Assembly (NCBI GenBank): GCA_017744735.1
Contig: JAGIAR010000013.1
Coordinates: 1 to 64,000 of the forward strand
Direction of reading: 5' to 3'
DNA: 64,000 bases
DNA from: Novosphingobium sp.
GTDB taxonomy: Bacteria; Pseudomonadota; Alphaproteobacteria; Sphingomonadales; Sphingomonadaceae
Shown: piece after piece, positions 13,424 through 60,186 of the stretch
Layout: each line of letters starts with the position of its first letter
Numbering within the stretch: the stretch's first letter is position 1
Notes under the pieces: model-generated
The model's input: the letters and a program-made list of their open reading frames with translations, nothing else
What the model was told of the DNA's origin: nothing
Database searches by the model: none
Translations under genes and position numbers: made by a program

Positions 13424-13495
13424 CGTCCCCGCGTCGGCGGGGGCCTCATGCAGCTTTGGCGCTCGTCCCCCCGAAACCCCTGCCTGCGCAGGGCA
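13424..13495 (+). repeat. Palindromic (REP-like) element A, two hairpins
   Basis: In the phaR-proS gap. The first hairpin is CCCCGC-gtcg-GCGGGG (13427-13442), followed by CCTCATGC. The second is CCCTGC-ctgc-GCAGGG (13478-13493). The twin hairpins with 4-nt loops share a design with elements at 17066, 23044 and 60111. Confidence 0.75.
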
Positions 13496-17065: not shown

Positions 17066-17138
17066 GTCATCCCGGCGGAGGCCGGGATCTCCAATCGTTA
17101 GGTGCTCGTTGGCCAGAGACCCCAGCCTGCGCTGGGGT
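17066..17138 (+). repeat. Palindromic (REP-like) element B, two hairpins
   Basis: The first hairpin is ATCCCGGC-ggag-GCCGGGAT (17069-17088). The second is ACCCCAGC-ctgc-GCTGGGGT (17119-17138). The element lies between the convergent M28 and M3 peptidase genes, so it could also act as a bidirectional terminator; a further small GGCGGC/GCCGCC hairpin follows at 17139-17153. Confidence 0.78.
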
Positions 17139-17152
17139 GGCGGCTTGGCCGC

Positions 17153-19183
17153 CTATTGCGCCGCCTTCGCCATGTCCGCGCGATAGGCGTCGAGGCTGAT
17201 ATCGCGGCCAAGGAAGTCCTTGACCAGCTGGGCCGCGGGTTCGGTGCCGCCCTTGGCGAGCACGCGCTCGCGGTATTCCTTCGCGGTCTCGGGATCGCGC
17301 AACCCGTCCTTCTCGAAGCGGGTGAACAGATCGTCGGCGATCACCTTCGACCAGCGATAGGTGTAATAGATCGCCGAGTAGCCGTTCAGATGGCCGAAGG
17401 AATCCTGCATCTGGACGAAATCGGGCGTCGGGATCAGGTCGAACGCGCCGCGATAATAGCGCGCGGCCTGGCCGAGGTTCTCGGGCACGGGTTCCTGATG
17501 CAATTCGAGCGAGATGTTCGAATAGCCGAGCTGGCGCATGTCGCCGAAGCCGAGGTTGAAATAGCGCGCGCGGTTCATCTTCTCGACCAGGTCGCGCGGG
17601 ATCGGGTTGCCGTCCTTGTCCTTCGCGAACTTGGCCAGCGTGTCGTAGTCGTAGACCCAGTTCTCGAGCATCTGCGACGGGGCCTCGACGAAGTCCCATT
17701 CGGTCGCCACCCCCGACTGGGCGAACCAGCGCTGGGTGCCGCCGAAGATATGGTGCAGCATGTGCCCGAACTCGTGCAGGAAGGTCTCGACGTCCTGGTG
17801 CTCCATCAGCCCGGTGGTGTGATCGCCCTGCGGCAGGTTCATCACCAGCGCGCCGAGCGGCACCGACTTGCCGCCGACCACGCCGGGGCGCAGCGGGATC
17901 ATGTTCGCGTGGCTGTACTTGCCCGGCCGCGGGTGGGAATCGAAATAGAACCGGCCGATCAGCTTCCCGTGATCGCGCACCTCGTAGGTCTCGATCTGCT
18001 TGTCCCACACCGGGGTCTTCCACGGGGTGATGGTGACGCCGAACAGGTCCTCGGCAAGCTTGAGGATTCCGTCGCGCACGTCGTTGTAGGCGAAGTACTT
18101 GCGCGCTTCCTGCGGATCGTAATCGTAATAGCGCTGCTGCACGATCGGCGCGAGCCAGCCGGTCTCCCAGAAGCGGATGTCGGTCGCCCCGGGGCGCAGC
18201 TCCTGCAGCACCTTGAGGTTCTTGGCGTAATCGCCTTCGGCCGCCGGGCGCGCGGCATCGGCCATGTCCTGCAGCAGGGTCTCGACCTTCTGCGGGGTGT
18301 TGACCATCTTGTCCTCGAGCACGAGCTGCGCATAGTTGCGCCGGCCGAGCTTCTCGGCGAGCTGCTGGCGCAGTTCGAGCAATTGCCGCAGCTTGTCGTC
18401 GTTGGCCGGCCAGGCCCGCTGGTTGTAGATCACCGACAGGTCGTGGCGCAGCGTGTCGCTCTTGGCGTAGCTCATCACCGGGCTGTAGTCGGGCGTGGCG
18501 GTGGTGATCGTGACCATGCCGTCGGCGCCGGGCTTGTGCGCGTCGATCCAGTCCTGCGGCAGCCCGGCGAGCTCGGACGGCGCGACCTTGAGCGACTTTT
18601 CGCCCGCGGCGATATTGGCGTCGAAATCGTTGCCGACCTGGGCGATCTTCTCCTGTAGTGCCTGAACCTCGGCGCGCTGCGCATCGTCCAGCGCGACCCC
18701 GCTGCGCTCGAAATTGGCGAGGGCCTGCTTGAGGTAATATCTGGTCTGCGCATCCTCGCCCGACGCGTCGATCGCCTTCAGCCGGTCGTAGATCGGGCGC
18801 GAGAGGCCGATCTTGCTCGAAATGCCCGAGAGCCGCACCTGGCAAGCGCCGCCGGCGTTGCGCCGGGCGTCGTCGGCCATCACCTGCTGGTAGAGGGTAA
18901 ACTCGCCCGAGCCGCCGCCGAGCAGCGCGGTGATCGCATCGAAGCGGGTGAGCGTGGTGCCCACGCTGGCCGGGCCGGTCTCGCCCTCGAGCTCGGTCAC
19001 CCGCCGCTGGATTTCGGCGACCAGGCTGTCGCATTTCGCATCGATCGCGGCCGCGTCGGGCGCGGTGGCGAGGATCGGCCCCATGGCCGCGACAACCGCA
19101 TCCCCCGGAGCGTCCTTGGCCGAGGCGGAGGTGGCGGTGAGGGCGGTGGCGGCGAGCAGGATGCCCGCAAGTTCGGTGCGCAT
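17153..19183 (-). CDS. M3 family metallopeptidase (Dcp/thimet oligopeptidase-like), exported
   Basis: Zinc oligopeptidase degrading short peptides. The catalytic HExxH is HEFGH within FLHEFGHMLHHIFGG, with the third-ligand region SQMLENWVYDYDTL downstream. The N-terminus MRTELAGILLAATALTATSASA is a cleavable signal peptide, pointing to the periplasm. The start is taken at 19183 (676 aa); the open frame continues upstream to 19330 but that part looks non-coding. Length is normal for M3A enzymes. The short secreted-protein gene upstream runs the same way, separated by 153 bp. Confidence 0.93.
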   Translation of the reverse strand: MRTELAGILLAATALTATSASAKDAPGDAVVAAMGPILATAPDAAAIDAKCDSLVAEIQRRVTELEGETGPASVGTTLTRFDAITALLGGGSGEFTLYQQVMADDARRNAGGACQVRLSGISSKIGLSRPIYDRLKAIDASGEDAQTRYYLKQALANFERSGVALDDAQRAEVQALQEKIAQVGNDFDANIAAGEKSLKVAPSELAGLPQDWIDAHKPGADGMVTITTATPDYSPVMSYAKSDTLRHDLSVIYNQRAWPANDDKLRQLLELRQQLAEKLGRRNYAQLVLEDKMVNTPQKVETLLQDMADAARPAAEGDYAKNLKVLQELRPGATDIRFWETGWLAPIVQQRYYDYDPQEARKYFAYNDVRDGILKLAEDLFGVTITPWKTPVWDKQIETYEVRDHGKLIGRFYFDSHPRPGKYSHANMIPLRPGVVGGKSVPLGALVMNLPQGDHTTGLMEHQDVETFLHEFGHMLHHIFGGTQRWFAQSGVATEWDFVEAPSQMLENWVYDYDTLAKFAKDKDGNPIPRDLVEKMNRARYFNLGFGDMRQLGYSNISLELHQEPVPENLGQAARYYRGAFDLIPTPDFVQMQDSFGHLNGYSAIYYTYRWSKVIADDLFTRFEKDGLRDPETAKEYRERVLAKGGTEPAAQLVKDFLGRDISLDAYRADMAKAAQ

Positions 19184-19336
19184 GATGCTGTCAGTCCCTG
19201 TAGGTTTCTGTTCGATTGGTTTCGTTTGGAACCAGCGGGCACCGGGCCGCGCGGCGGGCAAGGGGCAATCGACGAACCGCCGGCGCGCGAGGGCGAACGA
19301 CTTGCCGGCGCCCCGGGCGATCTCTTGCAATCGGCC

Positions 19337-22719: not shown

Positions 22720-24021
22720 ATGTCGATCGCGATCAAGATGCCTGCCCTGTCCCCCACGATGGAAGAGGGCACGCTGTCGCGCTGGCTGGTCAAGGTCGGC
22801 GACACGGTCAAGTCGGGCGACATCATGGCCGAGATCGAGACCGACAAGGCGACGATGGAGTTCGAGGCGGTCGACGAGGGTACGATCGCCGATATCGCAG
22901 TGCCCGAGGGGACCGAAGGCGTGAAGGTCGGCGCAGTGATCGCGACCCTGGCCGAGGATGGCGAGGATGTGGCGAGCGTGAAGCCGGCCGCGGCGAGTGC
23001 GGCGCCGGCGTCTGGCGCGAAGGAAGAAGTCAAGTCTGAAGCCGTCGTCCCAGCGAAGGCTGGGGCCTCATGCGGCGATACTCAACCTTCCGCCCAACCG
23101 ACCGAGGTCCCAGCCTTCGCTGGGACGACGAAAGGTGGCGACCGCGTGGTCGCCTCGCCGCTCGCCAAGCGCATTGCCGCCGATAAGGGCATCGACCTTG
23201 CGAGCGTCCAAGGCTCCGGTCCGCATGGCCGGATCGTCAAGGCCGACGTCGAGGGCGCGAAGCCCGGAGGCGCCGCCGCTCCGGCGCCCAATCTCGCCGC
23301 GAGCGCACCGGCTGCTGCACAGGATTTCGGCATCCCGCACGAAGTCGAGAAGCTTTCGGGCATGCGCAAGACGATCGCGCGCCGCCTGACCGAATCGAAG
23401 CAGCAGATCCCGCACATCTACCTCACGGTCGATATCCAGCTCGACAAGCTGCTCAAGCTGCGCGCCGAGCTCAACGGGGCGCTCGAAGCGGACGGCGTGA
23501 AGCTGTCGGTCAACGACATGCTGATCAAGGCGCTCGCCAAGGCGCTGCTGCGCGTGCCGAGCTGCAACGTCCAGTTTGCCGGCGACGAATTGCTCAAGTT
23601 CGGCCGCGCCGACATTTCGGTCGCGGTCTCGATCCCAGGCGGGCTGATTACCCCGATCGTCGTCGATGCCGGCGCCAAGTCGCTGTCGCAGATCTCGACC
23701 GAGATGAAGGATCTCGCCACCCGCGCACGCGACGGCAAATTGCAGCCGCACGAATACCAGGGCGGCACCGCCAGCATCTCCAACATGGGCATGTTCGGGA
23801 TCAAGCAGTTCGAGGCGGTGATCAACCCGCCGCAGGCGATGATCATGGCGATCGGCGCGGGCGAGCAACGGCCCTACGTGGTCGACGGCGCGCTCTCGGT
23901 CGCAACCGTGATGAGTGCCACCGGCAGCTTCGACCACCGCGCGATCGACGGCGCCGACGGCGCGCAGCTGATGCAGGCGTTCAAGCAGCTGGTCGAGAAC
24001 CCGCTCGGGCTGGTGGCCTGA
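22720..24021 (+). CDS. pdhC: Pyruvate dehydrogenase E2, dihydrolipoamide acetyltransferase
   Basis: Core of the pyruvate dehydrogenase complex, transferring acetyl from lipoate to CoA. The lipoyl domain has Lys43 in [11 protein letters not shown]. The peripheral subunit-binding domain begins near residue 143 ([17 protein letters not shown]), and the acetyltransferase domain ends with the DHRAIDG motif at 405-411. The Ala/Pro linker between the first two contains a palindromic repeat (23044-23129) translated in frame as VVPAKAGAS...[11 protein letters not shown] 22720 gives the family start [12 protein letters not shown] and 433 aa; ATGs at 22684 and 22705 are alternatives. A thioesterase, a membrane protein and lpdA (E3) follow; E1 genes are at 60.2-62.6 kb. 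Confidence 0.96.
23044..23129 (+). repeat. Palindromic repeat C inserted in frame within pdhC
   Basis: An 86-bp inverted repeat. The two 26-bp arms (23044-23069 and 23104-23129) are reverse complements with one mismatch. Each arm is itself a hairpin (CCCAGC-gaag-GCTGGG and TCCCAGC-cttc-GCTGGGA). Same design as elements A, B and D, but inside the E2 linker with the frame kept open. Confidence 0.88.
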
Positions 24022-60110: not shown

Positions 60111-60186
60111 TCAGTCCCCGCGCAGGCGGGGACCTCGGGCGAGGACGCTCCGGCCGGCATGAGGCCCCCGCCTGCGCGGGGGCTCG
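60111..60186 (+). repeat. Palindromic (REP-like) element D, two hairpins
   Basis: Hairpins GTCCCCGC-gcag-GCGGGGAC (60114-60133) and GCCCCCGC-ctgc-GCGGGGGC (60164-60183), separated by a 30-bp spacer with CATGAG before the second. Fills the gap between pdhB and the phytoene-synthase-like gene and may reduce read-through. Confidence 0.82.

Follow-up and report, generated by a model that had tools for sequence, protein, structure and literature searches.

The 64,000 nucleotides of Novosphingobium sp. DNA analysed here (the window; contig JAGIAR010000013.1, positions 1 to 64,000) raise the question of how a gene for the E2 subunit of pyruvate dehydrogenase comes to hold, within its reading frame, a palindromic repeat of a type that in this genome appears to lie mainly between genes. 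In what follows, L numbers denote loci, G numbers genomes, C-numbers before a coordinate contigs, and g numbers genera.

A REP dimer within the pdhC reading frame

The first-pass annotation had described an 86-bp inverted repeat at 23044-23129, inside pdhC and between the lipoyl and subunit-binding domains. The repeat is real and its place in the gene holds, with recognised Pfam domains on either side of it in an intact frame (Table 1); its true edges, however, lie one base further out on each side, which gives 88 bp with CGTC...GACG ends. Each 27-nt arm (complementary at 26 of 27 positions, with 34 nt between them) is a REP unit made up of a CGTC tag, an 8-bp stem, a GAAG loop and a three-base tail, CTC, and the two units are paired in opposite orientation with their tags outward and unpaired (23043-23046, and the inverse GACG at 23127-23130). 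The stem-loop-stem of unit 2 reads GTCCCAGC-GAAG-GCTGGGAC. Folded as RNA, the 88 nt reached -64.7 kcal/mol, whereas shuffled versions averaged -29.6 (z -9.4) and none of 200 came as low.

Table 1. Features of pdhC and of the CGTC-type repeats in the window
Feature	Position	Strand	Remarks
pdhC, pyruvate dehydrogenase E2 (dihydrolipoamide acetyltransferase)	22720..24021	+	intact ORF, 433 aa + stop
Lipoyl domain (Biotin_lipoyl), residues 5-77	22732..22950	+	Pfam
Peripheral subunit-binding domain, PSBD (E3_binding), residues 143-178	23146..23253	+	Pfam
CGTC REP inverted dimer	23043..23130	+	88 bp; codes residues 109-137
REP unit 1	23043..23069	+	CGTC tag, 8-bp stem with one T/G position, loop GAAG, tail CTC
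Spacer between REP units	23070..23103	+	34 nt
REP unit 2	23104..23130	-	inverted, perfect 8-bp stem, tag outward
REP, same type, second unit degenerate	13424..13495	.	no frame coding on both sides found
REP dimer directly 3' of minus-strand ORF 17153-19330	17066..17146	.	REP-unit pattern
REP dimer, same type	60111..60186	.	no frame coding on both sides found

The PdhC protein scored 520.6 bits against TIGR01349 (pyruvate dehydrogenase E2; cut-off 445), with its catalytic domain at residues 207-431 by Pfam. An AlphaFold2 model built from 24 aligned sequences had pLDDT values below 50 at residues 93-110 and 112-140 (also at 185-196 and 363-367) and above 80 over most of the lipoyl, subunit-binding and catalytic blocks; the linker is thus predicted to be disordered, in keeping with the earlier suggestion that it served as a flexible landing site. 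A pseudogene or frameshift was ruled out by the intact ORF with all its domains, and an assembly error is unlikely, as an 88-bp element lies at the same place in the one-contig genome G164.

Copies elsewhere in the genome

The elements at 13424, 17066 and 60111 had been held to be of the same type as that in pdhC, and their units (at 13426, 17070/17120 and 60115/60165) indeed match one degenerate REP-unit pattern with 0 mismatches. This pattern has 25 exact places in the genome (G000; 18 contigs totalling 3.53 Mb, completeness 92.7%), and with up to one mismatch on the two strands it gave 81+86 matches versus 23+28 for a reversed control. The best other match to the whole element had 75% identity over query positions 1-81 (C10:56714), and there were several shorter ones. 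We assessed 24 places with a codon score derived from five ORFs of the window (L292 left out), and at 21 of them no frame scored as coding on both flanks; the other three are the two pdhC units and one single unit (L284). With so few places in a coding frame, the pdhC dimer is an exception in this genome, the other copies being mainly between genes.

A RAYT gene beside the repeat was not found: the sole Y1_Tnp match of the genome (C10:199167-199496, L047, in an ORF of 230 aa) scored 63 bits against NF047646, the REP-associated tyrosine transposase model (cut-off 80), and there was no REP unit within 1.5 kb of this ORF.

Relation to known repeats

The single pdhC case is known in kind from the CGTC REPs as defined in the main text of Di Nocera et al. 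2013 (PMC3733652), which reports intragenic copies in many unrelated genes and where flexible linkers are proposed as tolerant insertion sites. The repeats studied here resemble CGTC-1 as described there in their CGTC tag, 8-bp stem, 4-base loop and 3-base tail, in pairing as inverted dimers across spacers of 20-100 bp, in being mainly intergenic, alphaproteobacterial and without a linked transposase, and in that some copies are intragenic, coding 20-30 residues. The pdhC copy differs from that description in its first stem pair, which is G-C (followed by T-A) where AT is almost invariable in CGTC-1, and in its tail, the usual CGTC-1 tail being CCA; the other window copy, at 17066, has AT.

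The parallel drawn earlier with palindromes inside Rickettsia ORFs is apt, since PMC3733652 counts the R. conorii elements RPE-4 and RPE-6 among the CGTC REPs and states that the intragenic repeats of R. conorii correspond to them; we set these beside the pdhC element by description, not by sequence. RPE-1 of Rickettsia, as told in the same text, is also a palindrome translated inside host genes, and differs, again by description only, in consisting of longer palindromic insertions. The GTAG REPs with RAYT share with our element the small tagged palindromes, the dimers and some intragenic copies; they have, however, a GTAG tag and associated RAYT genes, whereas the pdhC element is tagged CGTC. 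The words pyruvate, dihydrolipo and acetyltransferase do not occur in the main text of PMC3733652, as distinct from its Additional file 3 on target ORFs, and a literature search confined to texts without their supplements showed, among the papers listed, none besides that one on palindromes in these linkers.

Comparison with other species of the genus

The element is absent from pdhC of five other species of the genus (one genome each), as had been predicted for an alignment to relatives. An unbroken frame, a gene that is otherwise whole and relatives lacking the repeat are the traits expected of a coding palindrome (intragenic REP or RPE type). Two further expectations, a net gain of about 29 residues and clean edges, were not borne out. 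The E2 protein of 433 aa is just 2-8 residues longer than those of the five congeners (425-431), the linker between the lipoyl and subunit-binding domains (linker 1) measures 59 residues versus 49-55, and in an alignment to three congeners the REP block falls on an Ala/Pro-rich tract at the same place, with edges that are not clean. A two-base target duplication was considered and set aside, the flanks agreeing in some cases only.

The near identity of the arms had been read as a mark of recent insertion. Arm identity is a poor clock, because pdhC copies of the Sphingopyxis type show hardly any divergence at the four-fold sites of their stems (see below); late arrival itself fits the dS of pdhC to the five congeners (0.74-0.95, compared with 0.72 to G018, of another genus), which is far above the single arm mismatch, with the caution that this contrast is affected by stem conservation.

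Palindromes recur in E2 linkers of relatives

We collected 290 distinct E2 genes and delimited linker 1 in 288 of them (in the other two no start of the PSBD was recognised). The sample is biased to carriers, as a search of 397 genomes listed its best-scoring matches only and was run with a query that carried the element. A frame-blind test for inverted repeats (14 nt, at most one mismatch) was positive in 34 of the 288 linkers, as compared to 20 of 1440 after codon shuffling and 0 of 284 stretches from the catalytic domain. By regular expressions that we wrote on the peptides, these 34 comprised 18 of class A (the CGTC elements), 11 of class B, two of class C and three unclassified, namely L088, an apparent decayed A in the same frame, and L218 and L311, which are without REP. 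Class B is a second palindrome in the same pdhC linker, reading RPEPVEG...STSSGRTE or decayed forms thereof (e.g., in linker 1 of L020, L025, L133, L141, L174, L267, L268, L329, L331, L333, L337 and L340). Peptides of class C (SPSPAKAGEGQ, PSPPSGGEG and the like) were seen in linker 1 of pdhC in other genera (L087, L241, L257, L066 and L193), with inverted repeats confirmed in L087 and L257 only. The peptide rules alone found A in 24, B in 17 and C in five of the 288 linkers, the B count standing after removal by hand of the false match L122; six of the 24 A linkers had no inverted repeat at our threshold, and edges were unclear in six.

Counted by genome in this carrier-biased sample of 221, A was present in 23, B in 17 and C in three, with none in 178; for the 80 named loci the figures were two, one, two and 75. 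Genus g64, which we call Sphingopyxis-type as three of its genomes have a pdhC identical, in the part compared, to that of named Sphingopyxis records, had 15 genomes with A, seven with B and 37 with none (59 of 60 genomes searched), and in genus g88 one species had A, three had B and one had neither. On a family tree of E2 without linkers (258 of the 288 rows) A required 19 changes and B 15, and on a g64 tree (54 rows) A required 10 and B four, these trees being weakly resolved and not distinguishing gain from loss. Within g64, A shows hardly any clustering on the tree (11 changes versus a shuffled mean of 13.3, with 36 of 500 shuffles as low). The pdhC element is not a one-off: palindromes recur in E2 linkers. 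Median linker lengths were 57.5 aa with A, 56 with B (L122 still included) and 51 with none, and linker length thus appears to be nearly held even though the CGTC block comes to at least 25 residues.

All A elements, some of them decayed, read in the PAxAG frame (VPAxAG), which the A rule presupposes, so that our claim on the frame rests on the frame-blind set of 34 linkers: here 18 of 18 CGTC elements are in the PAxAG frame, and no linker-1 CGTC element of this set was found in another. The start NNC-GTC is kept in 22 of the 24 A elements and lost in two of genus g5 (L164 and L183).

Other lipoyl-bearing subunits

A control survey of 36 genomes, picked because their pdhC carries A or B, supplied 34 SucB-like regions and 26 regions of a third E2 class, which we take to be BkdB, fetched from a larger number listed. 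L433, of this third class, was recognised by the NCBIfam models as an E2 only, below every cut-off. Linker 1 of the third class had B peptides in 10 of 26 genes and A in none, the B peptides standing shortly before the subunit-binding domain (L433, L434, L436, L439, L440, L444, L446, L447, L454 and L457). Neither A nor B was found in linker 1 of the 34 SucB-like genes of these carrier genomes, so that not every lipoyl linker seems to take up palindromes; the SucB-like linkers look shorter, in a comparison that is not length-normalised. Of the SucB-like genes, L417 has B peptides elsewhere in its reading frame, and the inverted repeat found in L401 encodes no REP peptides.

PdhB, the E1 beta subunit, which here bears a lipoyl domain, was surveyed in the best-scoring 30 of the 56 g64 genomes with a match. 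It had A by rule in nine of 30 genes and B in one, while a further gene, L485, looks like a decayed A. In genome G464 the pdhB and pdhC spacers agree at 19 of 22 positions, while its pdhB spacer agrees at 11-14 of 22 with the other ten pdhC copies, which points to copying between pdhB and pdhC. Same-genome conversion of whole lipoyl domains between the two genes found no support, the two identities within genomes (0.87 and 0.84) not exceeding those between genomes (0.84-0.87; the L305 rows, out of register, were ignored, and L471 was absent from the comparison).

The recurrence of unrelated palindromes in lipoyl linkers, in one frame, is more interesting than the single case. It goes beyond the main text of PMC3733652 and may not have been reported before. 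One class of site holds unrelated palindrome families repeatedly, nearly always in one reading frame, and lipoyl linkers may serve as a replicated natural experiment on mobile DNA turning into protein, one that tests whether palindromes are merely tolerated or also maintained as hairpins.

Origin and maintenance of the element

Tolerated, frame-filtered insertions of palindromes are the most likely reading of these data, nucleotide-level maintenance being possible in addition, and for the window we think it quite probable that a CGTC REP dimer was gained in the linker and kept as a tolerated linker peptide under a filter of frame, composition and length. We envisage that a CGTC-type REP dimer would have come into the Ala/Pro-rich linker between the lipoyl domain and PSBD of pdhC by mobilisation or copying, and would have been kept because its frame VVPAKAG...VPAFAGTT is stop-free, rich in small residues and predicted to be disordered, so usable as linker. 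The segment would then be translated with a near-neutral effect on the enzyme, and linker length could have been rebalanced as the former Ala/Pro tract lost some of its residues, presumably in this order. More generally, the lipoyl-bearing subunits (PdhC, PdhB and the third E2 class) would repeatedly take unrelated palindrome families, with selection mainly filtering frame, composition and length. Against this explanation we count that PMC3733652, in its main text, gives no dedicated transposase for the CGTC REPs, that the one Y1_Tnp ORF of this genome has no REP unit near it, that the element flanks have no constant target-site signature and the edges are unclean, that the SucB-like genes of carrier genomes are free of A and B in linker 1, that the second E2 linker of L064 holds a CGTC-like inverted repeat apparently in another frame (DPGLRRE), and that a purely neutral reading would not explain stem conservation beyond drift.

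One or a few old insertions in ancestors, lost many times, in which palindrome correction or gene conversion (e.g., between pdhB and pdhC) kept the arms similar, are a possible though doubtful alternative to many separate insertions. It would account for the 88-bp elements at the same place in four genera, for the common spacer of ten g64 pdhC copies (15-22 of 22 positions) and for the likeness of the two G464 spacers; however, the window spacer agrees with other 88-bp spacers at just 12-16 of 34 positions, all five congeners are without the element, two stem types (CAGC and CCGC) occupy the same place, and the 19 family and 10 g64 changes of A weigh against it as far as those trees allow. An old insertion would fit the filter part of our preferred explanation and conflicts with late arrival in the lineage of the window.

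The stems themselves were compared in ten pdhC elements of g64 that share a spacer family, taken as five disjoint pairs. Only 2 of 75 four-fold sites differed in the stems, whereas the domains differed at 184 of 916 (Fisher p 3.8e-5), and by column 2 of 11 stem four-fold columns were variable versus 96 of 162 (p 0.011); the stems have also kept CCA and GCT, two codons that these genes rarely use. Spacers differed at 3 of 33 sites in the five disjoint pairs, and over all pairs, which are not independent, at 0.26 versus 0.22 for the domains. In pdhB there was no such effect, 5 of 10 stem columns varying in nine elements of two mixed stem types. Some nucleotide-level process (selection, conversion or repeated arrival) thus seems to act on the pdhC stems of this genus.

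One form this could take is that the lipoyl-subunit linkers of Sphingomonadaceae are a recurrent home of palindromes in which the hairpin itself is maintained by selection at the domain boundary or by conversion between copies, including pdhB-pdhC; we find this unlikely, and were it true the linker would be built and rebuilt from mobile repeats with its length nearly held. Also unlikely, in our judgement, is that the palindrome is kept for a role as nucleic acid: a very stable hairpin that pdhC mRNA (or DNA) would form between the lipoyl and subunit-binding domains and that might, for example, slow translation to let the lipoyl domain fold first, or tune mRNA decay. The low folding energy, the conserved four-fold sites, the retained rare codons and the presence of two unrelated palindrome families, often near the PSBD, would all be in line with such a role; yet most genomes, even in our carrier-biased sample, have no recognised palindrome there, the pdhB stems vary, and REP gene conversion or repeated arrival could conserve stems equally in the one genus compared. 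That the inverted repeat arose by chance from GC-rich Ala/Pro codons can be dismissed, for while some codon-shuffled Ala/Pro linkers also gave inverted repeats and L311 looks like a chance case, the 27-nt arms with a single mismatch, the CGTC tags and the matching units elsewhere in the genome, together with the low shuffled counts, make it next to inconceivable.

Related copies outside pdhC

Intact dimers are 1 modulo 3 long, as both units read in the PAxAG frame. Copies of 76 bp outside pdhC in eight g64 genomes were all within genes and in the PAxAG frame in the six places examined (pdhB in four, ligA in one and glyS in one; one further 76-bp place, G465:C1:1675141, is outside these six). 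The ligA (NAD-dependent DNA ligase, L469) and glyS (glycyl-tRNA synthetase beta, L470) copies of g64 are in-frame CGTC REP dimers. None of four 75-bp copies examined, nor the 83-bp copy L474, was covered by an ORF in which both units take the PAxAG frame, and the ORFs over these copies were without Pfam match. Linker 2 of the L025 E2 holds a CGTC element, this protein having two palindrome families with B in linker 1. An 82-bp copy (L478) reads both units in the PAxAG frame, within a putative 476-aa open frame without Pfam match.
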